Origin: Actinoallomurus sp.
Lineage (GTDB): Bacteria > Actinomycetota > Actinomycetes > Streptosporangiales > Streptosporangiaceae
Length of the DNA: 54,684 nucleotides
Direction: 5' to 3'
NCBI GenBank assembly: GCA_025964625.1
Contig: JAOPYL010000095.1
Span: forward strand, 1-54,684
This document shows positions 16,416 through 51,307 of this stretch, in pieces. Below the pieces are notes generated by a model. It was not told the DNA's origin, did not search any database, and was given only the letters and a program-made list of their open reading frames with translations. Position 1 is the stretch's first letter. Every line of letters begins with the position of its first letter. The position numbers were made by a program, and so were the translations under genes.

Positions 16416-16533
16416 GCTAACCTAAAGACGACGTTTTGCCTAGTCATTGCCGGTCTCCCCGCTGTCGGATGGATCACAGGCAGCGGACCGGCCGCCGTGC
16501 GTGTGAGGCGATCAGCTGGGGGAAATGCACCCC

Positions 16534-16538
16534 ATGTG

Positions 16539-16539
<1 letters not shown>
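16534..16539 (+). other. Start-stop element (ATG-TGA) overlapping the treX start codon
   Basis: ATG (16534-16536) is followed at once by TGA (16537-16539), whose last base is the A of the treX ATG. The only good ribosome site, GGGGGAA (16518-16524), is better spaced for this minimal ORF than for treX. It also sits in a TGGGG/CCCCA hairpin (16517-16534). Confidence 0.35.
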
Positions 16540-18612
<2,073 letters not shown>

Positions 18613-18620
<8 letters not shown>

Positions 18621-33826: not shown

Positions 33827-35428
33827 TCACTTGCAGAGGTTCTGGGTGGCGGTCCTCGCGTTGATCTGCTGCGCCGAATCGGCGGGCGGGATCCCCGGCG
33901 CACTGACCTTGACCTGCTTGACCCCGGCCCAGGACGACCCCACGATGACCTGCAGCCGGGAGCCGAGCGACGACACCTGCTCCAGCGTGGCCCCGGGGAT
34001 GGCGGCCTTGAGCGTCTTGGCGGACTCCGCGCGGCCGGCGCCGTACTGGATGACGGTCGTCCCGACACCGTGCCGCGCGCCCGGCACCACGCTGACCCCG
34101 AACCCGGCACCGCGCAGCTCGCGGGCGGCCCTGGCGGCGAGCCCGGAGATGCCGACGCCGTTGATCACCCGGGCGTCGATCTGACCCGGCGGCACGGTGA
34201 GGCCGTCCGTGGCCCGCGCGCTCGCGGACCCGCTGGGCGCGGGCTTCGCCGGCTGGATGATGGCCTGGTCCTTCTGTATCTCGCGGAACAGCTCGTCGCC
34301 GGCCTTCTGATCCCACAGCACGGTCGACTGCTGCGGCCCGCCGTTGATCGAGGTCAGGTAGTCGGGATTGGACAGCGGCACGGTCGCGAAGGCGATGCTG
34401 TCGGTGCTCATGCCCCTCATCTGCATGGCCAGCGAGGTCAGCGTGCCCTTCGACAGGCCCTTGTCCGCTCGGATCGCGTCCAGTGAGGCGTTGAGGAAGC
34501 CCGGGAACTTCGTCGGCTCGCTCAGCGCCTTGTGCACCATCGCCGACATGAACTGCTGCTGCCGGTTGATCCGGCCGAGGTCGCTGCCGCCGGTCAGCGT
34601 GTACCGGGCGCGGGAATAGGCCAGCGCGGTCGGCCCGTCGACGTTGCTATTGCCGGCGGGCAGCCGCAGGCCGCTCTTCGGGTCGTTGATCGCCTGCTCG
34701 GTGCAGACCGTGACCCCGCCGAGCGCGTCCACGACCTTGAGGAAGCCGAGGAAGTTGACCTCGACATAGTGATCGATGTGTATGCCGGTGGCCCGCTCGA
34801 CGGTCTGCACGGTCAGCGTCGGGCCGCCGTACATGTAGGCCCAGTTGAGCTTGCCCTGCCGCTCGCCGACATTGGTGCCCGGGGCACCCTCCGAGCCGTT
34901 GGAGCGGTGCCCGGGGATGGTCACCAGGGAGTCCCGCGGGAGGCTGACCACGTTGACCTTGTCGTGCTTGGACGACACGTGGACCAGCATCATCGTGTCG
35001 GAGCGCTGCCCGCCGATCTTGCCCAGATGCAGCTCGTTGATCTGCTGGTCGGTGAGCCCCTCACGGCGGTCCACCCCGGTGAGCAGGATGTTCATCGAGC
35101 CCTCGGGCCCGGATTCCGGCCGGTTCTTCAGCCCCTCGAAGGCGTCGACCCGCCGGACGCTGCCGAGGACGTAGCCCTGGAACACCCACCCGCCGCCGGA
35201 GAACAACAGCACCGCCACGGACATGGCGCCCGCCGCCATGAGGCCCCGGCGCTGCCGCCGTGCCCCGCGCCCGGAGACCTTCCCGGGCGGCCGCTCGATC
35301 GTGACGTGGGAGGCCTCGGCGTCGCCGACCGCGACACCATCGGCCTGACCTGCCTCGTCGTCGCCCGCAACGCCCGGTCGCGGCCGGAAGTAGCGCTCCT
35401 GCGGGTCGGACTCCACGTCGTCTGCCAT
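33827..35428 (-). CDS. LytR-CpsA-Psr (LCP) family wall-polymer ligase
   Basis: A 533-residue membrane-anchored protein. A 60-residue cytoplasmic N-terminus precedes one helix (about 62-82), then the extracytoplasmic LCP catalytic domain (about 110-300). Signature residues are in MNILLTGVDRR, QRSDTMMLVHV, VVSLPRDSLVTIPG and YSRARYTLTGGSDLGRINRQQQF. About 410-510 is a LytR_C domain (ARVINGVGISGLAARAARELR and beyond). LCP enzymes attach undecaprenyl-linked teichoic acid, arabinogalactan or capsule to peptidoglycan. It diverges from a GT2 gene and lies near surface-glycan genes, so it is a good candidate ligase for polymers made there. A GGGAGG site is about 10 nt before ATG 35428. Confidence 0.94.
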   Translation of the reverse strand: MADDVESDPQERYFRPRPGVAGDDEAGQADGVAVGDAEASHVTIERPPGKVSGRGARRQRRGLMAAGAMSVAVLLFSGGGWVFQGYVLGSVRRVDAFEGLKNRPESGPEGSMNILLTGVDRREGLTDQQINELHLGKIGGQRSDTMMLVHVSSKHDKVNVVSLPRDSLVTIPGHRSNGSEGAPGTNVGERQGKLNWAYMYGGPTLTVQTVERATGIHIDHYVEVNFLGFLKVVDALGGVTVCTEQAINDPKSGLRLPAGNSNVDGPTALAYSRARYTLTGGSDLGRINRQQQFMSAMVHKALSEPTKFPGFLNASLDAIRADKGLSKGTLTSLAMQMRGMSTDSIAFATVPLSNPDYLTSINGGPQQSTVLWDQKAGDELFREIQKDQAIIQPAKPAPSGSASARATDGLTVPPGQIDARVINGVGISGLAARAARELRGAGFGVSVVPGARHGVGTTVIQYGAGRAESAKTLKAAIPGATLEQVSSLGSRLQVIVGSSWAGVKQVKVSAPGIPPADSAQQINARTATQNLCK

Positions 35429-35508: not shown

Positions 35509-36525
35509 ATGAATCCCTCGCCGAACACACCCCCTGCCGGAAACCGCGCCTGGCCGGCGGTGTCAGTGATCATGCCCGTGCTCAACGAGGAGCGGCACCT
35601 CGCCGAGGCGGTCGAGGCCATTCTGAGCCAGGAATACCCCGGTGAGCTGGAACTCGTGCTGGCAATCGGACCCTCCCGCGACCGCACGCAGGAGATCGCC
35701 GAGAAGCTCGCCGCCGATGACCCACGGATCATCGTGGTGCCGAACCCGACGGGCCGTACGCCTCACGGGCTCAACGCCTCGATCAAGGCCTCGCAGTACT
35801 CCATCGTCGTCCGGGTCGACGGCCACTCGCTGCTGCCCCCCGACTACGTGCGGGCCGCGGTGGAGACGCTGGAGGAAACCGGCGCCGACAACGTCGGCGG
35901 CATCATGGCGGCCGAGGGCGTCACGCCGTTCGAGATGGCGGTGGCCCGCGCGATGACCTCCAAGATCGGGGTCGGTAACGCGCCGTTCCACACCGGCGGC
36001 CAGGCGGGCGAGGCCGAGACGGTCTACCTCGGCTCGTTCCGGCGCACCGCGCTCGAGCGGGTGGGCGGATACGACGAGACGTTCGTCCGTGCCCAGGACT
36101 GGGAGATGAACCACCGCATCCGCCAGACCGGCGGCAGGGTCTGGTTCACGCCCCGCATGCGGGTGACCTATCGTCCCCGGCCCAGCGTCCGCGCGCTGGC
36201 CAAGCAGTACTTCCACACCGGCCGGTGGCGGCGGGTCGTGGGCCGGGAGCACCAGGGCACCCTCAACCTGCGCTACCTCGCGCCGCCGCTGGCCGTGGTG
36301 GCCATGGTGGCCGGCGTCGTGGCGGGCGTCTTCGGCTTCTGGCCGGGCTGGGTCCTGCCGGGCGGGTACGCCGTCGCCATCGTCGGCGGATCCGTGCCGA
36401 CCGGCAAGGGGCTCCCCACCGCGGCCTGGCTGCGGCTGCCGCTGGTGTACGCCACGATGCACGTCTCGTGGGGAGTGGGCTTCCTCGTCAGCCCGCCGAG
36501 CCTGGGCCGTTCTCGCGAGCCGTGA
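35509..36525 (+). CDS. Family 2 glycosyltransferase (ExoA-like)
   Basis: A 338-residue GT-A glycosyltransferase with two or three membrane helices at the C-terminus. VSVIMPVLNEERHLAEAVEAIL opens the nucleotide-sugar domain (shown in part). RVDGHSLLPPDYV holds the metal-site acid and RAQDWEMNHRIRQTGG the acceptor/base region. It resembles ExoA-type transferases that extend a lipid-linked sugar in exopolysaccharide synthesis. It starts 80 nt from the divergent LCP gene and its last 38 bases overlap the convergent cytidylyltransferase gene. ATG 35509 is chosen over an upstream start that would add 20 hydrophobic, non-family residues. Sugar specificity is unknown. Confidence 0.88.
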   Translation: MNPSPNTPPAGNRAWPAVSVIMPVLNEERHLAEAVEAILSQEYPGELELVLAIGPSRDRTQEIAEKLAADDPRIIVVPNPTGRTPHGLNASIKASQYSIVVRVDGHSLLPPDYVRAAVETLEETGADNVGGIMAAEGVTPFEMAVARAMTSKIGVGNAPFHTGGQAGEAETVYLGSFRRTALERVGGYDETFVRAQDWEMNHRIRQTGGRVWFTPRMRVTYRPRPSVRALAKQYFHTGRWRRVVGREHQGTLNLRYLAPPLAVVAMVAGVVAGVFGFWPGWVLPGGYAVAIVGGSVPTGKGLPTAAWLRLPLVYATMHVSWGVGFLVSPPSLGRSREP

Positions 36526-37207
36526 TCTGCTCGGCGATCAGCAGATCGACCGGATGTGTGATCTTGATGTTCCGCTCGCTGCCCGGGACCACCAGGATGG
36601 GGACCCCGGGCAGATAGCGGTGCACGACGCCACAGTCGTCGGTGGGCGGCGTCTCGCCGAACTCCGGGTCGGCCAGCGCCCGCTCGTACGCCGCGCGGAT
36701 CGTGGCCAGCCGGAAGCCCTGTGGGGTCTGAAAGCGGCGCAGGCGGTCCCGCCGCGGCATCTCCACGACCCGTCCGGCCTCCACCACCACGACGGTGTCC
36801 GATGACGGCACCGCCACCGCGACGGTCTCGGCCTCGTCGAGGGCCGCGACGCACTCGGCGATGATGCGCCCGTCCACGAACGGGCGGGCGGCGTCGTGGA
36901 AGAGCACGCGGCTGTCGCCCGGCAGGCCTTCCAGGGCCGACAGCGCGCGCAGCGTCGACTCCGTACGGCTCGCGCCGCCCTCGATCACGCGTGCGACCTT
37001 CGCGTACGGCTTCGCGATCAGCTCCGCCTCGGCGATGTGCCCGGGAGCCATCACGACGAGAATCTCATCGATTCCCGGTGCGGTGTCGAACGCCTCGATC
37101 GCGCGCGCGAGGATCGGCCGGCCGGCCACCGCCGCGAGCTGCTTGGGGGCGTCAAGACCCAGCCGCTGACCAGTGCCACCGGCCAAGACGACCGCAACCC
37201 TCTTCAT
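36488..37207 (-). CDS. IspD/TarI-family cytidylyltransferase
   Basis: A 239-residue GT-A-fold cytidylyltransferase making a CDP-polyol from CTP and a polyol phosphate. Motifs are VVLAGGTGQRLGLDAPKQ, GGASRTESTLRAL, FHDAARPFVDG, RRFQTPQGFR and the C-terminal NIKITHPVDLLIAEQI. The family covers IspD (MEP pathway) and TarI (CDP-ribitol for teichoic acid). The GGTG loop in place of AAG resembles TarI, and no ispF follows. Its neighbours are CDP-alcohol phosphotransferases and a glycerol-1-phosphate-dehydrogenase-like gene, so I favour a polyol-phosphate substrate, with isoprenoid IspD as the alternative. It overlaps the preceding GT2 gene tail-to-tail by 38 bp. Confidence 0.88.
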   Translation of the reverse strand: MKRVAVVLAGGTGQRLGLDAPKQLAAVAGRPILARAIEAFDTAPGIDEILVVMAPGHIAEAELIAKPYAKVARVIEGGASRTESTLRALSALEGLPGDSRVLFHDAARPFVDGRIIAECVAALDEAETVAVAVPSSDTVVVVEAGRVVEMPRRDRLRRFQTPQGFRLATIRAAYERALADPEFGETPPTDDCGVVHRYLPGVPILVVPGSERNIKITHPVDLLIAEQITARENGPGSAG

Positions 37208-37214
37208 GGGCCGC

Positions 37215-37220
37215 ACTCTA
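37215..37220 (-). promoter_or_regulatory. -10 element of a leaderless transcript for the IspD/TarI-like gene
   Basis: On the minus strand TAGAGT is followed by 7 nt and ATG 37207. No Shine-Dalgarno is present. A 12-bp tandem repeat lies where the -35 would be (37220-37243). Confidence 0.4.
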
Positions 37221-37413
37221 CTGTCCGCGCGACTGTCCGCGCGGGAGCCTCCCGGGGCGCACCGGCGGCTGTAACCTATGGGAACTTTCGCCGTGCCAAT
37301 GGCCGAACGGATGTTTACGGCCGGGCGGCGACAGGATGACGGTCGCGATATGGTCGGCGCTCGTATCTCACGGCGTTCGCCGGAGAGCACACCCAGACCT
37401 GAAGGACTGTGAG

Positions 37414-37437
37414 ATGACGTTCGGAGGGCGCCAATGA
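37414..37437 (+). other. Seven-codon micro-ORF leading into the CDP-alcohol phosphotransferase operon
   Basis: ATG 37414 encodes MTFGGRQ and stops at TGA 37435-37437, overlapping ATG 37434 as ATGA. It has its own GAAGGA about 8 nt upstream. The GGAGGG serving the main gene lies inside it. A translational-coupling or leader-peptide role is possible. Confidence 0.35.
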
Positions 37438-39080
37438 CGTCGGCAGTGGTAGTCGCGACCGAGACGGTCGCGTCCGGGTCCACGCCGACGGCCGGGCTGG
37501 CTCTTCGGAGTGGTTCGGTCGTGGGCCACCTGCTTGAGCAGCTCGAATCCCTCGGCCTCGGCGACCGCCGGGTGATCGCCCGGCCCGAGACCGCCGCCGG
37601 GCTGCGGGAGCACGGCTGTGAGGTGGTGGAGTCCAAAGGGCTCGCCGACGACCTCCGGGAGATCGCGCGCGTGGCACGGGCCGCCCAAGAGCCCCTGCTG
37701 ATCCTGCACGGCGACGTCGTGGCCCACCGCGAGGTGATCGCCCGGCTGGTGCTCAACTCCAAGGCGCCCGCGTCCGCGGCGGTCGCTCGCGTACGCCCGG
37801 ACGGTGATGTCCCGAGCCGGTCGGTGATGAGAGTCCACAAGGGGCGTATCGCCTCCGCGGGCTCTCCGTACCACCAGGTGACGGACCCGAACGCGGTCTT
37901 CCAAGGTGTGCTGCGGGTGGCCCAGGAGGAGACCGCCACCCTCGCCGACGTGGCCGAGAAGCTGGCCGAGCTGGCCGACACGCCGGACGGCCTCACCGGG
38001 ATCAGCCCGGTCCGGGTCCTGTGGGACGTCCCGGAGGACACCGGTGACGCCGACATCGAGGCGGCGGAGGGCGAGCACCAGGGTGTCCTCGGTAGCACCC
38101 CCGTCACGGGCGACGACGCCCCCGCCCTGCTGCTGGTCGGCATGGTGCGCTCGGGAGTCAAGGTCACGGGACGCGGCAGTCCCGAGTTCCTCTGCGAGCG
38201 CGTCCTCGACAAGGCACAGGCCGACGCGGCCCAGCAGGGCCTCGACGCCGTCGACGAGGACCGGGTCCGGCTCAACGCCGCGGTGAAGAACAACGACGGG
38301 TTCTTCACGACCTACGCGGTGAGCACCTACTCCCGCTTCATCGCCCGCTGGTGCGGCAAGCGCGGCTGGACGCCCAACGGCGTCACCGCGATCTCCATGG
38401 CGATCTCGGTCGTGGCCGCGGCGTGGTTCGCCACCGGACACCGGTGGGGCATGGTCATCGGTGCGGTCTTCCTGTACTTCGCGTTCGTATTCGACTGCGT
38501 CGACGGGCAGCTGGCCCGCTACACCCGGCAGTTCAGCACGCTCGGCGCCTGGCTGGACGCGACGTTCGACCGGGCGAAGGAGTACACCGTTTTCGCCGGG
38601 CTGGCCGTGGGCTCCACCGCGGCCGTCGCGACGAGCTCCGTGCACGGGGGCGACGTCTGGTACCTCGCCGTCGCCGCGCTGACCCTGCAGACCTGCCGGC
38701 ACATGGTCGACTTCGCCTTCGGGGCGTCCAAGCGCCGCCGGGCGCCGGAGCCGATCCCGGTGCTCCCGCTGGCGATGCCGGACGACAGCGTGCTCGACGA
38801 GCCCGAGCCGTACAAGAGCCGGCCGAAGGGCGGCGGCCTCAGCCACCTCGCCGTGTGGCTTTCGGCCCGCTCGGAGAACATCCGGGCGTTCCACTGGTTC
38901 AAGAAGATCATCGTGCTTCCGATCGGTGAGCGGTTCGCACTGATCGCGATCACCGCTGCTCTGTTCAACGCGCAGGTGACGTTCATCGCGCTGCTCACGT
39001 GGGGCGGAATCGCCGCGATCTACACGGCCGCCGGGCGTTTCCTCCGGTCGCTGACGCAGCCGAGGTCGGCCGCGAAGTGA
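37434..39080 (+). CDS. Nucleotidyltransferase-like / CDP-alcohol phosphotransferase fusion membrane protein
   Basis: A 548-residue two-part protein. Residues 1-210 have a sugar-nucleotidyltransferase-like fold (LLILHGDVVAHREVIARLV gives the central Asp) but lack the G-rich nucleotide loop and PK motif. Residues about 280-545 form a multi-helix CDP-alcohol phosphotransferase with every catalytic Asp: Asp354, Asp357, Asp375 and Asp379 (DCVDGQLAR...GAWLDATFD). The layout recalls the fused inositol-1-phosphate cytidylyltransferase/di-inositol-phosphate synthase of thermophiles. It should transfer a phospho-alcohol from a CDP donor; the substrate is unknown. It heads a six-gene operon. GGAGGG lies about 8 nt before ATG 37434. 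Confidence 0.88.
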   Translation: MTSAVVVATETVASGSTPTAGLALRSGSVVGHLLEQLESLGLGDRRVIARPETAAGLREHGCEVVESKGLADDLREIARVARAAQEPLLILHGDVVAHREVIARLVLNSKAPASAAVARVRPDGDVPSRSVMRVHKGRIASAGSPYHQVTDPNAVFQGVLRVAQEETATLADVAEKLAELADTPDGLTGISPVRVLWDVPEDTGDADIEAAEGEHQGVLGSTPVTGDDAPALLLVGMVRSGVKVTGRGSPEFLCERVLDKAQADAAQQGLDAVDEDRVRLNAAVKNNDGFFTTYAVSTYSRFIARWCGKRGWTPNGVTAISMAISVVAAAWFATGHRWGMVIGAVFLYFAFVFDCVDGQLARYTRQFSTLGAWLDATFDRAKEYTVFAGLAVGSTAAVATSSVHGGDVWYLAVAALTLQTCRHMVDFAFGASKRRRAPEPIPVLPLAMPDDSVLDEPEPYKSRPKGGGLSHLAVWLSARSENIRAFHWFKKIIVLPIGERFALIAITAALFNAQVTFIALLTWGGIAAIYTAAGRFLRSLTQPRSAAK

Positions 39081-39111
39081 CGACGAGTCGAATGAGGAGG
39101 AAGAGCGACCG

Positions 39112-39795
39112 ATGAGCACAGTGCTCCCTGGCGGCATGTCGCCGAGCGTCCCGCGGAAGGCCGCCCCCGACGCCGAGCTGGCCTATCACGGCAGCCGTCT
39201 GGTCGCCTACCGCGACGACGGGCCGATCGCGCAGGTGCTCGGCCGGCTCACCAGGGGTCAGCTTCCCCCGCTGCTTCCCCTGCTTGTGGCCGTCGTCGTC
39301 ACGGGCATCCTGCTGATCACCGGCGTCAACGGCCAGACCAGCCCGGCGATCTTCGCCCCCGTGCTGGCCCTCCTGCTGGCCGGGCCGGGCTCCACGCACC
39401 CGCACAGTGGCCGGCTCGACTGGCTGGTTCCGCCCATCATGCGGGCGATCGAGTACGGCTACCTCGCCACGCTCGCCTTCGCGCACGACGTCTCCAAGCC
39501 GCTGACGTACGCCTTCATCGGAATACTCGCCTACCACCACTACGACACCGTCTACCGCACCCGGCAGCGGCTGTGGCCCGCGAAGTGGGTCTTCCGTGCG
39601 GGACTCGGCTGGGACGGCCGCATGCTCATCGCGGCGGCCGCGGTCCTCGCCGGTGTGCTGCCGCTGGTCCTCGCCGTACTCGGCGTCTACCTCGGGCTGC
39701 TGTTCGGCATCGAGAGCGTCTACACCTGGACGCGGACCGGCAAGGGCAGCGGTGTGATGATCAACCTGGAGGAAGAGGAGGAAGCCGGATCATGA
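39112..39795 (+). CDS. Multi-helix membrane protein (DUF5941-like)
   Basis: A 227-residue protein whose first 50 residues are polar (ELAYHGSRLVAYRDDGPIAQ), followed by about five hydrophobic segments in residues 52-205. Conserved-looking polar stretches are ILAYHHYDTVYRTRQR and GLGWDGRMLI. It ends in an acidic cluster (LEEEEEAGS). From memory this matches a domain called DUF5941, which in Streptomyces can be fused to a CDP-alcohol phosphotransferase like the one just upstream (31-nt gap), so here the two seem to be split. Function is unknown; a membrane partner of the transferase is inferred. Confidence 0.75.
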   Translation: MSTVLPGGMSPSVPRKAAPDAELAYHGSRLVAYRDDGPIAQVLGRLTRGQLPPLLPLLVAVVVTGILLITGVNGQTSPAIFAPVLALLLAGPGSTHPHSGRLDWLVPPIMRAIEYGYLATLAFAHDVSKPLTYAFIGILAYHHYDTVYRTRQRLWPAKWVFRAGLGWDGRMLIAAAAVLAGVLPLVLAVLGVYLGLLFGIESVYTWTRTGKGSGVMINLEEEEEAGS

Positions 39796-40523
39796 TTGGC
39801 ATGGTTCTGGCCGCGGGAGCGGGACGACGGCTCCGCCCGTACACGGACACGCTGCCCAAGGCCCTGGTGCCCGTCGACGGCGAGACGACGATCCTCGACA
39901 TCGCGCTCGGCAACCTCGCCGAGGTGGAGCTCACCGACGTGGTCATCGTCGTGGGCTACCGTGCCGGCGCGGTCGAGGAGCGCAAGGCCGAGCTGGAGGA
40001 CCGGTACGGCGTCGGCATCACGCTCGTGCACAACGACAAGGCCGAGGAGTGGAACAACGCCTACTCCATGTGGCTGGCCCGCGACTACTTCGCCGAAGGC
40101 GTCCTGATGGTCAACGGCGACACGGTCCACCCGGTGGACGTGGAGCGGACCCTTCTCGCCAACCGCGGTCCCGACGTGCTGCTCGCCGTCGACGACGTGA
40201 AGAAGCTCGCCGACGAGGAGATGAAGGTCATCCTCGGCGGCACCGGGCACCTGCGGCGCATCACCAAGCTGATGGACCCCGCGCAGGCGAACGGCGAGTA
40301 CATCGGCGCGACGCTGCTGGAGCCGGCCGCCGCCGAGCCGCTCGCCGACGCTCTCAAAGCGACGTGGGAGCGTGATCCGGACCTCTACTACGAGGACGGC
40401 TACCAGGAGCTGGTGGACCGCGGCGGCAAGATCTCGGTCGCGCCGATCGGAGCCGTGGACTGGGTAGAGGTCGACAACCACGACGACCTTCAGAAGGCCC
40501 GCCGGATCGCCAAGGGATACTGA
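39792..40523 (+). CDS. Phosphocholine/sugar-phosphate cytidylyltransferase-type NTP transferase
   Basis: A 243-residue NTP_transferase-fold enzyme. The nucleotide loop VLAAGAGRRLRPYTDTLPKALVPV carries GxGxR and PK (shown in part). LMVNGDTVHPVDVE provides the metal-binding Asp, and the C-terminal VDWVEVDNHDDLQKAR the second acid. LicC-like and inositol-1-phosphate cytidylyltransferases have this plan, making CDP-choline or a CDP-polyol. ATG 39792 overlaps the previous stop (ATGA) and its stop shares a base with the next ATG. It probably supplies the CDP-alcohol for the two phosphotransferases of the operon. Confidence 0.88.
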   Translation: MIGMVLAAGAGRRLRPYTDTLPKALVPVDGETTILDIALGNLAEVELTDVVIVVGYRAGAVEERKAELEDRYGVGITLVHNDKAEEWNNAYSMWLARDYFAEGVLMVNGDTVHPVDVERTLLANRGPDVLLAVDDVKKLADEEMKVILGGTGHLRRITKLMDPAQANGEYIGATLLEPAAAEPLADALKATWERDPDLYYEDGYQELVDRGGKISVAPIGAVDWVEVDNHDDLQKARRIAKGY

Positions 40524-41596
40524 TGCCGCTGCTCACGCGGATGCTGCCCGCACCGTTGTCGATCGACGTGCGGCGCGGCGCGATCGCCCACCTCGGCGAG
40601 CTGCTCGCCGACCGGCGCATCGTGACCGAGGGCCGGGTGGCCATCGCGGTCGGACCGGGCCAGGGCGACCAGATCGCCGAGCACGTCCGGCCGAGCCTGG
40701 AGGCCTGCGAGGTCTTCCACGTCGCCGGCGCCTCCGTCGACGCCGCCGTCGAGCTCGGCTCCCGGCTGCGCACCGGTTCGTACGAGGCGGTCGTCGGCAT
40801 CGGCGGCGGACGCACGATCGACGCCACGAAGTACGCCGCGACACTCGCCGGCATGCCGATGGTCTCCGTCGCGACCAACCTGTCGCACGACGGGATCTGC
40901 TCGCCGACCGCATCGCTGGAGCACGAGAACGGCAAGGCCTCGTTCGGTGTGACGATGCCGCTCGCCGTGGTCGTGGACCTCGACTACGTGCGGGCCGCGC
41001 CCGAGCGACTCGTACGGGCCGGCATCGGTGACGTGCTGAGCAACTTCTCCGCGGTCGACGACTGGTCGCTGTCCCACCGCGAGCAGGGCGACCCCATCGA
41101 CCGGCTGGCGCTCACGCTCGCGCGCACCGCCGCGGAGGCGCTCGTCCACCAGCCCCGGTCGATCGAGTCGGACGACTTCCTGACCGTGCTGGCCGAGGGG
41201 CTCGTGCTGTCCGGGATGGCGATGTCGTTCGCCGGGTCGTCGCGGCCGTCGAGCGGTGGCGACCACGAGATCCTGCACGCGATCGACCATCTGTTCCCCG
41301 GCACGGCCAACCACGGAGAGCTGGCCGGCATCGGGGCGGCGTTCTGTTACCACCTGCGTTCGACGCAGCTCGGCGAGGGCGCCGAACGCCTCGGCGAGAT
41401 CGTGGCGAGCCTGGATCGTCATGGACTCCCCAAGACTCCGTACGACATCGGCCTGACCGAGGAGCAGTTCGCCGAGGCGGTGGCGTACGCTCCCCAGACC
41501 AGGCCTGGCCGGTACACCATCCTTGAGCACCTCGCACTGGACGAGAGTGCTGTGCTGAAAGCGGTACGCGAATATGTCGGCACCTTCGCTGGCTGA
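40523..41596 (+). CDS. sn-Glycerol-1-phosphate dehydrogenase-like enzyme
   Basis: A 357-residue iron/zinc-type alcohol dehydrogenase close to the EgsA/AraM group, which reduces dihydroxyacetone phosphate to sn-glycerol-1-phosphate. GIGGGRTIDATKYAA (about 92-106) binds NAD(P). ATNLSHDGICSPTAS (about 117-131) parallels the archaeal G1PDH motif. Metal ligands are Asp170 (AGIGDVLSN), His248 (SSGGDHEILHAIDHL) and His264 (NHGELAGIG). In this operon it probably makes the polyol phosphate that is then activated with CTP. Another ketose phosphate is possible, since related polyol-phosphate dehydrogenases share the motifs. It starts on the last base of the previous gene and overlaps the next by 23 nt. 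Confidence 0.88.
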   Translation: MPLLTRMLPAPLSIDVRRGAIAHLGELLADRRIVTEGRVAIAVGPGQGDQIAEHVRPSLEACEVFHVAGASVDAAVELGSRLRTGSYEAVVGIGGGRTIDATKYAATLAGMPMVSVATNLSHDGICSPTASLEHENGKASFGVTMPLAVVVDLDYVRAAPERLVRAGIGDVLSNFSAVDDWSLSHREQGDPIDRLALTLARTAAEALVHQPRSIESDDFLTVLAEGLVLSGMAMSFAGSSRPSSGGDHEILHAIDHLFPGTANHGELAGIGAAFCYHLRSTQLGEGAERLGEIVASLDRHGLPKTPYDIGLTEEQFAEAVAYAPQTRPGRYTILEHLALDESAVLKAVREYVGTFAG

Positions 41597-42365
41597 GGTC
41601 CGGGCGGGCGGGCAGCCACCGGGCCTCACAGATCGGCGCAACGAGGAGCACTGGGCAGGGCGTCTCTACATGCGCCGCATCTCGCCCTTCTTCACCTGGA
41701 TGTTCGTCCGGATCGGGTTCTCCCCGAACCAGCTCACCTACCTGATGATCGTGTGCGGTGTACTCGGCGGCGCGGCCGTCGCGGTCACCGGCCGCGGCGT
41801 CGCGGGCCTTGTATGGGCGATCGCCGGAGCCGTGCTGATCCAGGCATACCTGCTGCTGGACTGCTCGGACGGGGAGGTCGCGCGGTTCCGCAAGCGCACC
41901 TCCGTCACCGGCGTGTACCTCGACCGGATCGGGCACTACATGTCGGAGGTCGCGCTGCTGGCCGGCCTCGGCGTGCGGGCCCAGGGCGCGTTCCAGAACG
42001 GCGGCTACGTCGAGCTGGGCCTGCTCGCCGCGCTCGGCGCGGCGCTGATCAAGGCGGAGACGGACAACGTCGTGGTGGCCCGCGCCAAGTCGGGGCTGTC
42101 CGCCGCCCCGGAGACCGGCGACCGTGCGCTGCGGCCCGAGTCCACCGGCCTGGCGCTGGCCCGCGAGGCCATGGCGCTGCTGAAGCTCCACCGGATCATC
42201 GGCGCCGTCGAGCTGTCCCTGCTCATCGTGGTGGCCGCCGTGATCGACCACCTGACGCACGGGCTGACCGCCACCCGGTTCCTGGCCGTCGCGGTCGCCG
42301 TCGTGGCCGTGCTCCAGACCGGGCTGCACTTCGTCAGCATCGTCGCGTCGCGGAGGCTCAAGTGA
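41574..42365 (+). CDS. CDP-alcohol phosphotransferase with substituted catalytic residue
   Basis: A 263-residue membrane protein with about six helices. The family motif Dx2DGx2ARx8Gx3Dx3D is present as Asp96, Asp99, Gly100, Ala103-Arg104, Gly113 and Asp117, but the last position is His121 instead of Asp (GVYLDRIGHYM). In characterised CDP-alcohol phosphotransferases that last Asp acts as the general base, so this enzyme either uses His, has another acceptor chemistry, or is inactive. It is the second member of the family in the operon. It overlaps the dehydrogenase gene by 23 nt and its stop overlaps the following GTG. Confidence 0.88.
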   Translation: MSAPSLAEVRAGGQPPGLTDRRNEEHWAGRLYMRRISPFFTWMFVRIGFSPNQLTYLMIVCGVLGGAAVAVTGRGVAGLVWAIAGAVLIQAYLLLDCSDGEVARFRKRTSVTGVYLDRIGHYMSEVALLAGLGVRAQGAFQNGGYVELGLLAALGAALIKAETDNVVVARAKSGLSAAPETGDRALRPESTGLALAREAMALLKLHRIIGAVELSLLIVVAAVIDHLTHGLTATRFLAVAVAVVAVLQTGLHFVSIVASRRLK

Positions 42366-43228
42366 AGCTGTCCGTGGTCGTCCTCACCATGGGCAACCGC
42401 CCGGCCGAACTCGAACGCGCTGTCCAGAGCGCGCTGAACCTCCGGGCCGACGACCTCGACATCGAGGTCGTCCTGGTGGGCAACGGCGCGGACGTGCCCG
42501 GCACATGGCCCGACGTCGTCACGCTGGTGCGCCTGCGGGAGAACATCGGCATCCCGGCGGGCCGCAACCGCGGCGTCGAGGCGTCGTCCGGCGAGGTCAT
42601 CATCTTCCTCGACGACGATGGCTTCTACGACTCCTCGACGCTCGGCACCCACCTGCGGGACATGTTCACCGCCGACCCGGGCCTGGGCGTCGTCTCCTTC
42701 CGGGTGTGCGACCCCGAGGGAGGACCCGGCGAGCGGCGGCACGTTCCCCGCCTGCGCGCGGGCGACCCGCTGCGCTCATCGGACGTGACGACCTTCCTGG
42801 GCGGCGCCTGCGCGATCCGGCGCGCCGCCTTCGACGCGGCCGGTGGCCTGCCCGAGGACTTCTTCTACGCCCACGAGGAGACCGACCTCGCCTGGCAGAT
42901 CCTCAACGCCGGCTACCGCATCGTGTACGACGCCGACTCGGTGATGTTCCATCCGGCGCTGCCGCCGACCCGGCACGAGATGTTCTACCGGCTCAACGCC
43001 CGTAACCGGGTATGGCTGGCGCGCCGCAACCTGCCCTGGCCGATCGCCCTCGTGTACCTGGCCGTCTGGGTCGGCATGACCGTCGCCCGCGACCGCAGGC
43101 CCGCCGCGCTACGGCCATGGTTCGGCGGCTTCCGCGAGGGCTGGCGCAGGCCCGCGGGCCCGCGTCGCCCCATCTCCTGGCGCACGGTCTGGCGGATGAC
43201 CCGCCTCGGCCGCCCCCCCGTCATCTGA
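42362..43228 (+). CDS. Family 2 glycosyltransferase
   Basis: A 288-residue GT-A transferase beginning KLSVVVLTMGNRPAELERAV. NIGIPAGRNRGVEASSGEVIIFLDDDGFY contains the DDD metal site (shown in full over two blocks: NIGIPAGRNRG and IIFLDDDGF). FYAHEETDLAWQILNAGYRI holds the ED base. The pattern resembles rhamnosyl-type GT2 enzymes. A hydrophobic stretch near 225-240 may peripherally attach it to the membrane. GTG 42362 overlaps the stop of the phosphotransferase, so it is the last gene of the operon. It may glycosylate the phosphopolyol product. Confidence 0.9.
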   Translation: MKLSVVVLTMGNRPAELERAVQSALNLRADDLDIEVVLVGNGADVPGTWPDVVTLVRLRENIGIPAGRNRGVEASSGEVIIFLDDDGFYDSSTLGTHLRDMFTADPGLGVVSFRVCDPEGGPGERRHVPRLRAGDPLRSSDVTTFLGGACAIRRAAFDAAGGLPEDFFYAHEETDLAWQILNAGYRIVYDADSVMFHPALPPTRHEMFYRLNARNRVWLARRNLPWPIALVYLAVWVGMTVARDRRPAALRPWFGGFREGWRRPAGPRRPISWRTVWRMTRLGRPPVI

Positions 43229-43278: not shown

Positions 43279-45456
43279 TCAGCCGGAGAGGAGATCCCGC
43301 CATTCGGGGCTGGTGGTCAGGACGGTGAGGCGCTGGGTGGCGCGGGACACGGCGACGTAGAGAGTGCGCAGGCCTGTCGGGGAGTACTCCGCGATCTCGC
43401 CGGGCTCGACGATGAGGGCGGCGTCGAACTCCAGGCCCTTCGCCTCCAGGGCGTCGAGGACCTGCGCGCGTGCCGGGAACCCGGGCAGGTGCGGGGCCGG
43501 GTGGCCGACCGGGAGGATGATGCCGACGGTGCCCTCTACCGCGCCGATCAGCGCCTCCGCTTCGGCGCGTACGGTGCCGTCGAGGTCGGGCACGTGGCGG
43601 ATGACGGGGAGACGGCCCGAGGTTCGCACGGCGCGGGCGGGCACGGCCTCGGGGACCGCGCGGCGCAGCACCCGGGTGGCGACATCGGCGATCTCCACGG
43701 AGTTGCGGTAGTTGGTGGTCAGCTCGAAGTCGTGCCGTCCGCGGTGGCCGAGCGCGGTGTCCATCGCCTTGCGCGACGCGGCCGGGTCCTCCCAGGCGCT
43801 CTGTGCCGCGTCCGCCACGACCGTCCACGTGGCGTGCCGGCCGCGCCGGCCGAGCATCCTCCACTGCATCGGCGACAGGTCCTGCGCCTCGTCGACGACG
43901 ATGTGGCCGTACTCGGCGGGGCGGTCCTCGTCGTCCTCGTCGTCGTCGCGGCGCATGGCCCGCTCGCGGCGCTCGACGTACGTCGTCAGTTCGCGGAACG
44001 CCGGCTCGTCGTCGAGCTCGACGTGCTCGCCGGTGAAGACGTTGACGCCGTCGATGACGAAAGGGTCTTCGGACTTCCGCCTCGGGCCGCGCCCGGGTCG
44101 CGGGGGCGGGCCCAGAATGGCATCGATCTCGTCCAGCAGTGCGATGTCGAGGTAGGACCGGGGTCCCTCCCAGGAGGCGGACAGCAGGCCGATCTGCCGG
44201 TCGGTCAGCGAACGGTGGGCCGCCCGGCGCAGCCGATCGGCGTCGGCCAGCGAACGCAGCACGTCGGCGGGGCGCCGGACCGGCCACCACGCGCGGAGGA
44301 ACTCGACGAAGTCCCGTTCGTCGCGTACGTGCCCGGTGAACTCCGCGCGAGTGGTGCGTGGGGCGTCGTCAAGCCCCCCGACCTCGACGAAGCGGTCCCA
44401 CAGGGCGCCGAGGAGCGCCTCGGCCGCCCGCGGATAGGCCTGGTTCACGGCGCCGCCCGCCCGGCGGTGGACCTCCTGACGGATCGCGTCGAGGACGTCG
44501 CGGCTCAGCTTCACGACCACGCCGCGGTACACCGCGCGCAGCTCCTCCGGAGCGCCGGGCGGAGCGTCCTGCACGGCCCGCCGCAGTACGCGGGCCATCA
44601 CGGACGCGCCCTTGATCCGGGCGAGCTCGGGGGAGTCGTGCGCCGATGCCTCCTCGCCCGCCACGAGGTCGCCGAGCGAGCGCAGGATCGCGCCGCCCTC
44701 GCCGAGGGACGGCAGGACCCGTTGGATGTAGGAGGTGAACCGGTGGTTCGGGCCGACGATGAGCACGCCACGCGAGCCGAACCTGCGGCGGTGCCGGAAC
44801 AGCAGGTACGCCACCCGGTGCAGCGCCACCGCGGTCTTGCCGGTGCCGGGGCCGCCGCGGACGATGACGGTGCGGTCGGCGGGCGCCCGGATCACCTCGT
44901 CCTGCTCCCGCTGGATCGTGGCGACGATGTCGCGCATGGTGCCCTCACGGGTGCGGGCGAGGGAGGCGAGGAAGGCACCGTCGCCGACGATCGTCAGGTC
45001 GCGACCGGCCTCCGGCATGAGGAGATCGTCCTCGAGGTCGACGACCTTCCGCCCACGGGAGTGCAGCACCCGGCGCCGTACGACGCCGCGCGGATCCTGC
45101 GGAGTCGCGCGGTAGAAGGCCTCGGCGGCCGGGGCCCTCCAGTCGACCACCAGAGAGTCGTGCTCGCTCGTGCGGACGCCGATCCGCCCGACGTACAGCG
45201 TCTCCCCGCCGGTCAGATCCAGCCGCCCGAAGACCAGGCCGTCCTCGGCCACGTCGAGCGCGTGCGCGCGCATCGCCGCCTGGTGCACCATGGCGTCGCG
45301 ATCGACCAGGGAGCCCTTGGTGCCGGCCTGCGCCTGACGGTGGCCCTCCTCGATCATCCGCCGGGCGCCGGCGCGCATCTCCTCCAGGCGTGCGTATGCC
45401 TGGTCGACGCGGAGCTGTTCCGCGGCGATCTCATCGTCTTTGACCGTCGGCGCCAT
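43279..45456 (-). CDS. HelD-like UvrD/Rep-family helicase
   Basis: A 725-residue superfamily 1 helicase-like ATPase. A charged N-terminal helical arm (about 5-45) precedes the split ATPase. Walker A is GGPGTGKT at 201-208, YGHIVVDEAQDLSPMQWRML is the Walker B region (shown in part), and ATWTVVADAAQSAWEDP and FELTTNYRNSVEIAD are motifs III and IV. The arm plus UvrD-like core is the plan of HelD, which pulls stalled RNA polymerase off DNA and recycles it. Some actinobacterial relatives (HelR) also give rifamycin tolerance. I saw no rifamycin-associated element upstream. A GATAAT 6 nt before ATG 45456 suggests a leaderless transcript. Confidence 0.9.
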   Translation of the reverse strand: MAPTVKDDEIAAEQLRVDQAYARLEEMRAGARRMIEEGHRQAQAGTKGSLVDRDAMVHQAAMRAHALDVAEDGLVFGRLDLTGGETLYVGRIGVRTSEHDSLVVDWRAPAAEAFYRATPQDPRGVVRRRVLHSRGRKVVDLEDDLLMPEAGRDLTIVGDGAFLASLARTREGTMRDIVATIQREQDEVIRAPADRTVIVRGGPGTGKTAVALHRVAYLLFRHRRRFGSRGVLIVGPNHRFTSYIQRVLPSLGEGGAILRSLGDLVAGEEASAHDSPELARIKGASVMARVLRRAVQDAPPGAPEELRAVYRGVVVKLSRDVLDAIRQEVHRRAGGAVNQAYPRAAEALLGALWDRFVEVGGLDDAPRTTRAEFTGHVRDERDFVEFLRAWWPVRRPADVLRSLADADRLRRAAHRSLTDRQIGLLSASWEGPRSYLDIALLDEIDAILGPPPRPGRGPRRKSEDPFVIDGVNVFTGEHVELDDEPAFRELTTYVERRERAMRRDDDEDDEDRPAEYGHIVVDEAQDLSPMQWRMLGRRGRHATWTVVADAAQSAWEDPAASRKAMDTALGHRGRHDFELTTNYRNSVEIADVATRVLRRAVPEAVPARAVRTSGRLPVIRHVPDLDGTVRAEAEALIGAVEGTVGIILPVGHPAPHLPGFPARAQVLDALEAKGLEFDAALIVEPGEIAEYSPTGLRTLYVAVSRATQRLTVLTTSPEWRDLLSG

Positions 45457-45518: not shown

Positions 45519-47294
45519 GTGATCACGGTCGAGTCCGCGCGGAGCCGGTGGAGCGTCGTGCCGGGCGTCATGGCTGCTCTGCTCACCGTGGTCATGGGCA
45601 GTGTGCTGGCCAACCGTTTCATCCTGCAGGCGGAGTGGTGGCAGGTGAATCGGACGGTGACGCACGCGCCGCGGCCGCCGCTCGCCGATCTGGGCCCGCC
45701 GGCCGGCCCGGTCACGACGAGCTGGCAGCTGAACACCCCCGTCGGAGACAGTGACCTGCCGGCGTACGACCGGGTGGCGTACACGATCCTGGACGGCCAG
45801 CTCATCATCGTGTCCGGGCACGGCCTCGACGTCCGCGACGCGCGCACCGGCAAGGAGCGGTGGCACTACTACCGCGCCGAGTGGTCCATGCTGGGCTGGG
45901 CGCACACCGGGCAGGTCCTCGTCGTGTACCTCGAACGCACCGGGCACCGCGGCAACCGCCTGATGGTGGGCCTCGACGCGGTGAGCGGCACCCTGCTGTG
46001 GCGGCAGCGCGGAGACGTGCCCGCCGCGACCGAGCGGACCACACTGCGCTGGCCCGCCGGCGGCGGGGTGGTCATCGTGACCGAGGACGGCCGGCACACG
46101 CTGTACGGGCGCTCGGCCACGACCGGCCGCCGGCTGTGGACGAAACGCCTGGCGCACGGCTGCCTGGTGCCCGAGGCGGTGCCGTACGCCTCCGGAAGCA
46201 GCGAGAGCGTGGCCGCCTTCAGCCTCGACTGCGGCGCCCGTGACCGCGTGCTCTCCCTCGATCCACGCAGCGGGCACACGCTGTTCACGACGAACGCCCA
46301 GCACTCCGCCGTTGCCGTCCGCGGCGACGTGACCGCTGTCTTCGACGGTGCGGGACTGTACGCCTACGACCGGACCGGCCGGAAGTTCCTGATCCGCAAG
46401 GGTGACGACGTGTGCCGGGACATGTGCCCGATCGCGGTGACCGGGGGTCACCTCCTCGTCGCCTACGGGCTCGCCCGGCAGCCCGCGGACGGCACGGCGA
46501 CGCGACGCCTCGAGTCGGTCGACATCGCCTCCGGGGAGCTCTCCTGGCATCGTGACATGCCCGGATACACCGCGCTGTCGGTCGCGGGCGGCCTGGTGTA
46601 CGGCTTGCGCTCCCAGCTCGCGGACCCGCTGCTGCCGGCCGGCATCGACGTCATCGACCCGATGACGGGTGAGGGGACGACGGTGCCCGCCCCGATGGTG
46701 TTGCGGCCGGGGCTGGACGGGGTGCGGCCCTGGCTCGGCGCCGGCGGCGGCCTGCTCTACGTGGCCGTGCCGGCGGCCCGGCCGCGCCCGTTCGGCGCTG
46801 CCAGGCTGATGGCCCTGCGCGGCGGGATCCGCGGTCTCGGACCGCCGGAACTCGCCGGCGTGCCGGTCGGAGACTGGCCCGATGCCTGCTCGCTGCTCAC
46901 CGGACACGACCTGCCGCGGGACTATGCCGTCGAACCGACGCCGGCGAGCGTCGAGGGTCTCCGCCTGCCGGCCGGGTGCACCTTCCGGCCCCGGCACCAT
47001 GGGCCGCGCGCCCCCGACGGTCCGCAGAGCGAGGCCGGGACGCTGTCGGTCACGGTCCAGTGGGTCGCCGCCGACCCCGGCACCGCAGCCGTGCTCTTCG
47101 CCGCGGCCCGTGACACCCAGAGCGGCGTCCACGAGCCGGTGAGGGCCGGCGACGCGGCGTACGCGCTCGGCGTCCCGTCCGGGACGGTCGTGATGCGGGT
47201 CGGCCGCACGATCGTCACCGTCACCGCCGGGCTGCCGGGTACGGCGACCCGCCTCGCCCCGGTGATCGCCGCGCACCTGCGGGCCGGAACCTGA
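45519..47294 (+). CDS. Membrane-anchored PQQ-like beta-propeller protein
   Basis: A 591-residue protein with one N-terminal membrane helix (about 13-33, VVPGVMAALLTVVMGSVLA) and an extracytoplasmic region. Repeated blades show the PQQ-propeller motif: LDVRDARTGKERWHYY, VGLDAVSGTLLWRQRG, YGRSATTGRRLWTKRL, LSLDPRSGHTLF and ESVDIASGELSWHRD. Residues after about 455 form a separate domain with Cys463 (PDACSLL) and Cys498 (PAGCTFR), which may form a disulphide. Function is unknown; sensing or scaffold roles at the cell surface are common for such proteins. GTG 45519 lies inside a perfect 12-nt Shine-Dalgarno match, so the real start is uncertain; in-frame GTG 45558 and ATG 45570 are alternatives. 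Confidence 0.82.
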   Translation: MITVESARSRWSVVPGVMAALLTVVMGSVLANRFILQAEWWQVNRTVTHAPRPPLADLGPPAGPVTTSWQLNTPVGDSDLPAYDRVAYTILDGQLIIVSGHGLDVRDARTGKERWHYYRAEWSMLGWAHTGQVLVVYLERTGHRGNRLMVGLDAVSGTLLWRQRGDVPAATERTTLRWPAGGGVVIVTEDGRHTLYGRSATTGRRLWTKRLAHGCLVPEAVPYASGSSESVAAFSLDCGARDRVLSLDPRSGHTLFTTNAQHSAVAVRGDVTAVFDGAGLYAYDRTGRKFLIRKGDDVCRDMCPIAVTGGHLLVAYGLARQPADGTATRRLESVDIASGELSWHRDMPGYTALSVAGGLVYGLRSQLADPLLPAGIDVIDPMTGEGTTVPAPMVLRPGLDGVRPWLGAGGGLLYVAVPAARPRPFGAARLMALRGGIRGLGPPELAGVPVGDWPDACSLLTGHDLPRDYAVEPTPASVEGLRLPAGCTFRPRHHGPRAPDGPQSEAGTLSVTVQWVAADPGTAAVLFAAARDTQSGVHEPVRAGDAAYALGVPSGTVVMRVGRTIVTVTAGLPGTATRLAPVIAAHLRAGT

Positions 47295-47309: not shown

Positions 47310-48398
47310 TCACGCGGTGGAACGCGCCCAGTCCTCGAGCTGGGCGACGAAGAGCCGGGCCTGCTCGGGCCAGTGATACCGGGCCCGGGCGGCCTCGTGC
47401 CCGCGCTTGCCCATGTCCACGCGGAGGGCCGTGTCGTCGCGCAGGCGCCGGACCGCGGCCGCGGTCGCCTCGGGGTCCTCGAAGGGCACGACGAGGCCGC
47501 AGCCCGCGTCGGTGACGATCTCAGCGGCGATCGGGTTGGGGGTGGTGACGACGGGCAGGCCGTGCGCCATGTACTCGACGACCTTGGTCGGCATCGAGTG
47601 CCGGTAGTTGGGCGAGTCGTGCAGCAGGGCCAGGCCGGCGAGGGCGCCCTCGGCCATGCGCAGCGCCCGGTCGTTGGGTACGAACCCGTACCAGCGCAGG
47701 AGCCCGACGCGCTGTGCGTCGCGCAGCAGCGGCCGTACGTCGGCGTCCGCCGGGCCGACCAGGTCGAGCGTGACCCCGTCCGCGTGCAGCAGCTCGGCCA
47801 GTGCGATCAGGTCGGCGGCCCCGCGCGCCAGCGAGAGCTGCCCGACGTAGACGACCCGGTCGTCCCCTGGCGGCGCCGGGGGCGCCTCCGGCACATGCGT
47901 CGTGTTCGGCACGACCGGATGCTCGAGCCGGAACCGCCCGCGGTATCCCTCCTCCGCCAGCAGCAGCTTGAGCCGCCGCTCCGCGCGCCGCTCCAGACGG
48001 CGCACGCCGAACCGCAGCGGAATGCGCAGCGGCGCGGGCAGCCAGCCCTTGACGCCGAGCGCGGCGGCGGTGTCCTCGTGGACGTCCCAGACCGTGCGGG
48101 AGCGCAGGTGGTGCGGCACCGCGAGCAACAGCTCCGGGTCGTGCAGCAGCACGAGGTCCGCGTCCTTCGCGCGGGCGGCCAGCGTGCGCCGCGCGGCCCG
48201 CAGCGCGCGTAGCCGATTGCGACCGGCCGCACGCGGCACGTCCAGTGGGACGATGCCCGGCCAGGGCGCGACATTGCACGCCCGGAACGGCGCCATATAA
48301 GTGACGTCGTGCCCGGCGTCGAGTAGCGCACGGATCTGCCGGTGCAGAATTCGTGCGTCCTCGGGATGGTGCACGATCGTGCAGACGAAAACGCGCAT
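47310..48398 (-). CDS. Family 4 glycosyltransferase
   Basis: A 362-residue GT-B transferase. The N-domain begins MRVFVCTIVHHPEDARILHR, and the C-domain shows VVYVGQLSLARGAADL, RWYGFVPNDRAL and the nucleotide-sugar site KVVEYMAHGLPVVTT followed by E in IAAEIVTDAGCGLVV. It lies downstream of a UDP-HexNAc dehydrogenase gene on the same strand across a 68-nt AT-rich gap. A role in surface polysaccharide assembly fits. ATG 48398 is chosen; an upstream GTG at 48407 would add three residues. Sugar and acceptor are unknown. Confidence 0.9.
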   Translation of the reverse strand: MRVFVCTIVHHPEDARILHRQIRALLDAGHDVTYMAPFRACNVAPWPGIVPLDVPRAAGRNRLRALRAARRTLAARAKDADLVLLHDPELLLAVPHHLRSRTVWDVHEDTAAALGVKGWLPAPLRIPLRFGVRRLERRAERRLKLLLAEEGYRGRFRLEHPVVPNTTHVPEAPPAPPGDDRVVYVGQLSLARGAADLIALAELLHADGVTLDLVGPADADVRPLLRDAQRVGLLRWYGFVPNDRALRMAEGALAGLALLHDSPNYRHSMPTKVVEYMAHGLPVVTTPNPIAAEIVTDAGCGLVVPFEDPEATAAAVRRLRDDTALRVDMGKRGHEAARARYHWPEQARLFVAQLEDWARSTA

Positions 48399-48466
48399 TG
48401 TTTTCACTTCACCGGTAGTCTGGCGGAGAAAAATAAATATTCAGTGAATTCCGCGCGACCATCGGC

Positions 48467-49738: not shown

Positions 49739-49748
49739 GTGGCTCCCT

Positions 49749-51266: not shown

Positions 51267-51307
51267 GGCGGGCGAGGCTAAGCACCTTCAATGAACGAGA
51301 GGCAAAC

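Follow-up and report, generated by a model that had tools for sequence, protein, structure and literature searches.

Gene content and conservation of the cassette

The stretch of DNA analyzed here, called the window throughout, comprises 54,684 nucleotides of Actinoallomurus sp. (assembly GCA_025964625.1, contig JAOPYL010000095.1) and carries, at 37434–43228, a core cassette of six plus-strand genes, BIF–DUF5941–NTPT–G1PDH–CDPOH2–GT2b. An earlier note on this DNA had proposed a pathway for a surface lipid or glycan at this locus, built from two genes for cytidine triphosphate-using transferases (here the IspD-type and the nucleotidyltransferase gene), two cytidine diphosphate (CDP)-alcohol phosphotransferase (CDP-OH) genes, a glycerol-1-phosphate (G1P) dehydrogenase-like gene (G1PDH), a membrane-protein gene and family-2 glycosyltransferase (GT2) genes. 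All of these were found by Pfam and NCBIfam assignments, and the same reading frames were picked by an independent caller using codon-position composition. As the note had also observed, the plus-strand genes overlap or nearly touch, with spacings by reading-frame coordinates of +31, -4, -1, -23 and -4 bases from BIF through to GT2b. The cassette consists of real genes that form a genuine operon. Both GT2 genes that had been placed within 36488-43228 exist, the second (35509-36525) falling just outside that range. The six genes are as follows.

37434-39080, plus strand: BIF, N-terminal nucleotidyltransferase-like domain and C-terminal CDP-alcohol phosphotransferase domain (PF01066, 51.7 bits)
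39112-39795, plus strand: DUF5941 membrane protein (PF19365, 116 bits)
39792-40523, plus strand: NTPT, predicted cytidine triphosphate (CTP):phosphoalcohol cytidylyltransferase, with glycerol-1-phosphate as the proposed substrate (PF00483, 47.7 bits)
40523-41596, plus strand: G1PDH/AraM-clade dehydrogenase, proposed to convert dihydroxyacetone phosphate (DHAP) to sn-glycerol-1-phosphate (NF002022, 256.5 bits)
41574-42365, plus strand: CDPOH2, second CDP-alcohol-phosphotransferase homologue (PF01066, 28.4 bits)
42362-43228, plus strand: GT2b, family-2 glycosyltransferase, last gene of the operon (PF00535, 55.2 bits)

The search with BIF covered 296 genomes of the phylum, 42 of which matched at E 1e-10 or better. 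Strong matches (at least 179 bits) were obtained in 13 genomes including the window's own, and the remaining matches, at 71 bits or less, lay mainly over the CDP-OH domain. Comparison of 20-kb stretches from the 12 other strong-BIF genomes, which belong to other families, showed the six-gene order in 10 of them, a recurrence that is more than chance. Locus L040 was reduced to BIF-DUF5941-NTPT and L041 to a BIF-DUF5941 fusion only. A scan of viral contigs with G1PDH found no relatives.

G1PDH was found in 40 of 60 relatives. The named loci referred to below are the best 80 of 485 relatives, all of them from Streptosporangiales, and the closest are Actinoallomurus loci with 90-91% G1PDH identity. 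NTPT, G1PDH, CDPOH2 and GT2b were each present in 80/80 named loci, followed by DUF5941 (76/80), IspD (74/80) and BIF (55/80). Since BIF had no strong match in 28/80, mainly Nocardiopsis-type and some Actinomadura loci, the four downstream genes NTPT-G1PDH-CDPOH2-GT2b are the core. The 23-base overlap between G1PDH and CDPOH2 was identical in 71 of 90 loci. A single conserved operon that unites an enzyme of the G1PDH type, one using CTP, CDP-alcohol phosphotransferases and a GT2, as first suggested from the window, is supported by the order in 10/12 loci and the core four in 80/80. Where BIF is missing, a protein of 284-303 aa with no Pfam match stands between TagH and DUF5941 (L122:7712-8623 and similar Nocardiopsis-type loci), and this protein may be a decayed BIF.

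Predicted functions of the cassette proteins

By its sequence profile, the cassette dehydrogenase is a member of the G1PDH/AraM clade. The profile scored 207-211 bits against the G1PDH/AraM-type chains 4rgq and 3ce9 of the PDB, the latter itself labelled glycerol dehydrogenase, and at most 83 bits against GldA-type chains. The motif SRPxSGxxHxxxH was present in 90/90 G1PDH sequences and the metal-site D...H...HG arrangement in 89/90 (the exception being L136); a stricter metal-site pattern with the residues around the histidines fixed was matched by 27/90. The reduction of DHAP to sn-glycerol-1-phosphate is the activity that we propose for this enzyme. By profile score and by the pattern of the metal site, the enzyme groups with B. 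subtilis AraM and archaeal G1PDH, but its partners in the cassette are CTP and CDP-alcohol enzymes and not PcrB/GGGPS. The presence of G1PDH homologues in actinobacteria had been pointed out earlier (Yokobori 2016, PMC5059525).

NTPT is predicted to be a CTP-using cytidylyltransferase closest to the small-phosphoalcohol type. Its three top profile matches in the PDB were LicC (78.7 bits), the T. maritima enzyme 4jd0 (59.8 bits) and PntC (58.4 bits), whose substrates are phosphocholine, inositol-1-phosphate and a phosphonate, respectively. The nucleotidyltransferase signature LAAGxGxRL was found in 90/91 NTPT sequences, and the S. fungicidicus homologue is named in RefSeq as a phosphocholine cytidylyltransferase family protein. 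The assignment of the 39792 gene to a CTP-using enzyme is supported by this signature and by nearest solved relatives that use CTP, with both the nucleotide and the alcohol standing as predictions.

Motif statistics were compiled from 92 loci, with 64 sequences for BIF (>150 bits, >430 aa) and 88 for DUF5941; the CDPOH2 count leaves out L040 and L041, whose matches are the BIF gene itself, and alignment A1 was made without L058 and L061. The AlphaFold2 (AF2) model of BIF (pLDDT 83) gave its best structural matches to A. fulgidus IPCT-DIPPS (Foldseek E 1.2e-13) and AF2299 (VIA Z 21.6). Like BIF, these proteins combine a cytidylyltransferase-like N-domain with a CDP-alcohol phosphotransferase domain and use soluble CDP-alcohol donors. 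Unlike them, BIF has an N-domain in which the nucleotidyltransferase signature is absent (0/64 homologues), and the cassette adds a separate NTPT and the motif-less DUF5941. The full CDP-OH motif D1xxD2GxxAR...GxxxD3xxxD4 was present in 62/64 BIF homologues, with no match in L108 and L040.

CDPOH2 (263 aa) aligned to BIF with 98.4% probability, and its only PDB match was AF2299, the structure of which holds the glycerol of CDP-glycerol (PMC4634129). Among the 91 genuine sequences, window included, D1-D3 were kept and the fourth motif aspartate (D4) was replaced by His in 67, as in the window, or by Ala in 24, which are all eight Streptomyces-type loci and 16 Nonomuraea-titled loci. D4 is the likely catalytic base, and a D-to-N change in a phosphatidylinositol phosphate synthase nearly abolished activity (PMC4634129). 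Judged by these residues, CDPOH2 is a homologue of the class I CDP-alcohol phosphotransferases and not a canonical catalytic member.

DUF5941, described at first simply as a membrane partner, is indeed a membrane protein, and its predicted fold seems to be that of a third CDP-alcohol phosphotransferase, one without the motif. In VIA comparisons of its AF2 model (pLDDT 80), rows 1-14 were all CDP-alcohol phosphotransferases and the next row had Z 6.3. AF2299 was matched at Z 13.4 with an rmsd of 7-8, in a range (about Z 13) that helical proteins can reach by chance, and PgsA1 at Z 11.6, with an rmsd of 3.4 A across 173 residues. Foldseek also ranked the family first, though weakly (E 0.35). No significant profile link to CDP-OH proteins was returned by hhalign, and the fold claim thus rests on the AF2 model. 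The DxxDGxxAR catalytic motif was absent from DUF5941 in all homologues (0/88). Altogether, DUF5941 looks like a degenerate CDP-alcohol-transferase half without the catalytic motif. Additionally, it is fused to BIF in nine loci, with Streptomyces-type loci among them, and is probably the partner of BIF.

Neighboring genes and a possible CDP-glycerol supply

The window operon is surrounded by genes for a LytR-CpsA-Psr (LCP) enzyme, GT2a, UDP-sugar dehydrogenases, family-4 glycosyltransferases (GT4) and a UDP-GlcNAc 2-epimerase. The neighbors considered here are the following, the last four being assigned by Pfam.

36488-37207, minus strand: IspD, divergent neighbor (TIGR00453, 186.3 bits)
35509-36525, plus strand: GT2a, family-2 glycosyltransferase, linked context (PF00535, 78.6 bits)
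33827-35428, minus strand: LCP glycopolymer transferase, linked context (PF03816, 170.8 bits)
47310-48407, minus strand: GT4, surface-glycan gene with a weaker link to the cassette
48467-49738, minus strand: UDP-sugar dehydrogenase, surface-glycan gene with a weaker link
49749-51266, minus strand: GT4, surface-glycan gene with a weaker link
51308-52399, plus strand: UDP-GlcNAc 2-epimerase, surface-glycan gene with a weaker link

The open reading frame of IspD is overlong and was trimmed to an ATG, giving 239 aa that exceed the NCBIfam ispD cut-off (186.3 vs 181.3 bits). IspD lies divergently upstream of NTPT in 73 of the 74 named loci having it and was not seen within 20 kb around eight Streptomyces-type cassettes; the core cassette was therefore limited to the six plus-strand genes. 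The earlier note had considered the 36488 enzyme for the CTP:polyol-phosphate step, a role that we rejected. The window's genome (G000) contains no other full-length IspD match and encodes IspF elsewhere, so that the enzyme is probably, judging from this gene inventory, the housekeeping enzyme of the methylerythritol phosphate pathway and not a cassette member. Among 24 same-family genomes with a match, 19 had a single full-length IspD and five had a second one. One such second IspD is a fusion with a short-chain dehydrogenase/reductase (IspD-SDR), and next to it are two proteins that match Glyphos_transf over a short length. In L150 (14196-19548), from the same genus, the region about 2.5-8 kb past GT2b holds a CDP-ribitol-synthase-like IspD-SDR fusion along with two large proteins that have short matches to Glyphos_transf. 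In L151 (4056-4811), a glycerophosphodiester phosphodiesterase gene (GDPD, PF03009) overlaps the end of IspD, and similar genes were seen by eye after IspD in some Actinomadura and Nocardiopsis-type loci.

Streptosporangiales copies of the cassette carry LCP, GT2a and IspD upstream, whereas in the Streptomyces type the downstream side is occupied by TagGH and hopanoid genes. A TagGH-type ABC pair comes directly after GT2b in all eight Streptomyces-type loci, with squalene/phytoene synthases next. The annotated S. fungicidicus locus, in accord with this, reads DUF5941, phosphocholine cytidylyltransferase family, iron-containing alcohol dehydrogenase (ADH), CDP-alcohol transferase, glycosyltransferase, ABC permease, ABC ATPase and hpnCDE, and the BIF-DUF5941 fusion of L041 is placed between TagGH and a GT2-Glyphos_transf (TagF-like) protein. 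Near the cassette in the named loci we found GT2a (72/80), LCP (69/80), TagH (19/80) and TagG (18/80). Homologues of the 47310 GT4, the UDP-sugar dehydrogenase, the 49749 GT4 and the epimerase were near the cassette in 56, 21, 18 and 15 of 80, respectively, the last three mostly in Nocardiopsis-type loci.

In the window, these surface-glycan genes (47310-52399) are separated from the cassette by two others. Directly after the operon lies a HelR/HelD-type RNA-polymerase recycling ATPase (43279-45456, minus strand; NCBIfam 450 bits, below the 1100 cut-off), with homologues near the cassette in 17/80 named loci. Beside it is a PQQ-repeat (BamB-like) protein (45519-47294, plus strand), with a homologue near the cassette in 10/80. 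Farther away on the plus strand, three adjacent alpha-amylase-family genes, the first with a CBM48 (16497-22604), perhaps form a trehalose or glycogen operon, and a polyphosphate kinase gene is followed by a fusion of NUDIX and histidine-phosphatase domains (9390-12324).

TagD and TagF were compared across 46 genomes chosen from the earlier searches, 28 of which carry the cassette G1PDH. A TagF-like match above 200 bits was found in 27/28 of these carriers, and the window's genome encodes two TagF-like proteins. The TagD model did not pass its cut-off in 46 and 41 genomes (0/46 and 0/41), in which weaker matches exist, and 8/28 carriers lacked any TagD-like match at E 0.001. In the three genomes that have TagF but no BIF, the TagD-like matches reached 132.5, 59.7 and 59.3 bits. 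TagD-like matches of at least 59 bits thus occurred in 3/3 TagF-bearing non-BIF genomes vs 3/27 carriers (Fisher p 0.005, with a post hoc threshold and relatedness ignored). This pattern fits the cassette as an alternative source of CDP-glycerol, short of proof. Both enantiomers of glycerol phosphate can be accepted by TagF-like capsule polymerases and by TagD-type enzymes (PMC8262930), so that CDP-glycerol derived from G1P would be chemically usable.

Proposed pathway and alternative explanations

From the observed gene families, conserved operon, motif states, neighbors and distribution, we propose a route that leads from DHAP through G1P and CDP-glycerol and ends in an exported product, either a glycerol-phosphate glycopolymer or lipoteichoic acid (LTA), a reading to which we give an even chance. 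G1PDH would reduce dihydroxyacetone phosphate to sn-glycerol-1-phosphate, which NTPT would join with CTP, yielding sn-1 CDP-glycerol. The transfer of phosphoglycerol to a lipid-linked or polyol acceptor would then fall to BIF, together with DUF5941 as its degenerate partner, and to CDPOH2, and GT2b would glycosylate the product. TagGH-type transporters would carry out the export, and LCP enzymes or a lipid anchor would retain the product at the surface. The cassette may also supply CDP-glycerol to TagF-like polymerases encoded elsewhere, replacing TagD. This agrees with the scheme originally drawn for the locus (ketose phosphate to polyol phosphate to CDP-polyol, then transfer and glycosylation), the substrates in it being predicted from sequence. 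The teichoic-acid-like option raised at that time was strengthened by the LCP, TagGH-type exporters and TagF-like polymerases near the cassettes of relatives or elsewhere in the genomes. Within this scheme, BIF and DUF5941 could be an asymmetric pseudo-dimer of an active and a dead half which, with CDPOH2, polymerizes or primes poly(sn-glycerol-1-phosphate) from CDP-glycerol, a tentative idea that we consider rather unlikely.

The proposed route shares CDP-polyol activation, TagGH-type export, LCP attachment and, in most carriers, TagF-like polymerases with the wall teichoic acid pathway (TagD, TagB/F, TagGH, LCP). It differs in having G1PDH and a LicC-like NTPT in place of TagD, membrane enzymes of the CDP-alcohol-transferase family, and no TagF inside the cassette.

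A number of observations weigh against the proposed pathway. Every substrate in it, as well as the stereochemistry, the acceptor and the polymer, is inferred. The G1PDH score on NF002022 lies below the equivalog cut-off of 413, for which reason the enzyme was assigned to the same clade but not equated with the archaeal equivalog. The relationship of NTPT to characterized enzymes is distant, and its best match uses phosphocholine. The presumed catalytic base is missing from CDPOH2 in all 91 sequences, BIF has no strong match in 28/80 named loci, and in G204 and G108 the 20 kb examined contain BIF but no G1PDH. The cassette of the window has no TagGH next to it, the nearest homologue being on another contig, and no TagF was found in carrier G086. 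The TagF-like proteins may use other CDP-polyols, as relatives have IspD-SDR fusions. In addition, no more than 2/14 control genomes gave a TagD score above the cut-off of the model, and three Streptomyces-type carriers had TagD-like matches of 63-66 bits, as strong as those of two non-carriers.

A different ketose phosphate might be reduced, giving a polyol other than glycerol (of the erythritol, ribitol, mannitol or inositol type) and hence another wall polymer or lipid. We regard this as unlikely, albeit the strongest of the alternatives. The Fe-ADH superfamily is diverse, the best match of NTPT is a phosphocholine enzyme, and BIF and CDPOH2 score on the inositol-using models NF040950 (64.5 and 42.2 bits) and NF045883 (57.1 and 31.1 bits), all below cut-off. 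However, the dehydrogenase groups with G1PDH/AraM and not with GldA or DHQ synthase, and AF2299, the nearest solved relative of BIF and CDPOH2, holds CDP-glycerol (PMC4634129). Somewhat less likely is a phosphoglycolipid or LTA lipid anchor, for which CDPOH2 or BIF would move phospho-X from CDP-X to diacylglycerol or polyprenol in a Kennedy-type reaction and GT2b would add a sugar. A LicC-type cytidylyltransferase with a CDP-alcohol transferase is the layout of CDP-choline-type routes, and the cassette matches it; the four-gene core remains where BIF is missing, and hopanoid genes follow the cassette in Streptomyces. The TagGH and LCP neighbors, on the other hand, suit a polymer, and lipid-acceptor enzymes typically have 3-4 extra C-terminal helices (PMC4634129), whereas CDPOH2 has only 263 aa.

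The structural match of BIF to the A. fulgidus IPCT-DIPPS fusion could also point to a soluble phosphodiester osmolyte, as in archaeal di-myo-inositol-phosphate synthesis. This is improbable given that no BIF homologue retains the cytidylyltransferase signature and that export, LCP and glycosyltransferase genes surround the cassette; the carriers, which we take to be mostly ordinary soil mesophiles, also weigh against it. Least probable of all are archaeal-type ether lipids made from G1P, the archaeal-like phospholipid that the earlier note had entertained. Such a product would suit the G1PDH-clade enzyme, and AraM of B. subtilis acts in the synthesis of a lipid of this kind (PMC5059525, PMC13400652), but the cassette has no prenyltransferase, and no PcrB/GGGPS was found in the window's genome, which is about 95% complete, by a search whose control was detected in B. 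subtilis and archaea.

Part of this picture is already known, namely the component families, the actinobacterial G1PDH homologues and part of the Streptomyces synteny. A 2026 paper lists a Streptomyces synteny region with crtB, tagH, tagG and araM, together with a CDP-alcohol transferase, a GT2 and a nucleotidyltransferase, as teichoic-acid-associated, with no mechanism in the portion available (PMC13118837). Judging by the S. fungicidicus gene order, this is very probably the same cassette. The available portion reports synteny alone, and the Streptosporangiales copies differ in their upstream LCP, GT2a and IspD in place of downstream TagGH and hopanoid genes. The claim that the gene set has no characterized product held within the searches made of open-licence papers, with that published synteny (tagG, tagH, araM) as a qualification. 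The same searches gave no papers on DUF5941, none joining a CDP-alcohol phosphotransferase with teichoic acid, none that treats G1P and CDP-glycerol together with a dehydrogenase and teichoic acid in Actinobacteria, and only an unrelated one on the loci SCO6752-6757; nor were the pathway, the DUF5941 fold assignment or the loss of the CDPOH2 base found in print.

Streptomyces and related actinobacteria produce polyglycerolphosphate LTA despite having no LtaS, and as of 2011 an alternative LTA pathway was called for in these organisms (PMC3196553, PMC3089915). The operon supplies named genes for this question, together with the prediction of sn-glycerol-1-phosphate units, and the cassette could help explain how actinobacteria synthesize teichoic acids without the usual genes. 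If the proposed pathway is true, bacterial G1P would have a role beyond the ether lipid of Bacillales, and the operon would be shown to retain CDP-alcohol transferases after loss of the base (CDPOH2) or of the entire motif (DUF5941). Should the pseudo-dimer of BIF and DUF5941 also prove true, actinobacterial teichoic or lipoteichoic acid with glycerol of archaeal stereochemistry would arise by a route that needs neither LtaS nor TagD.

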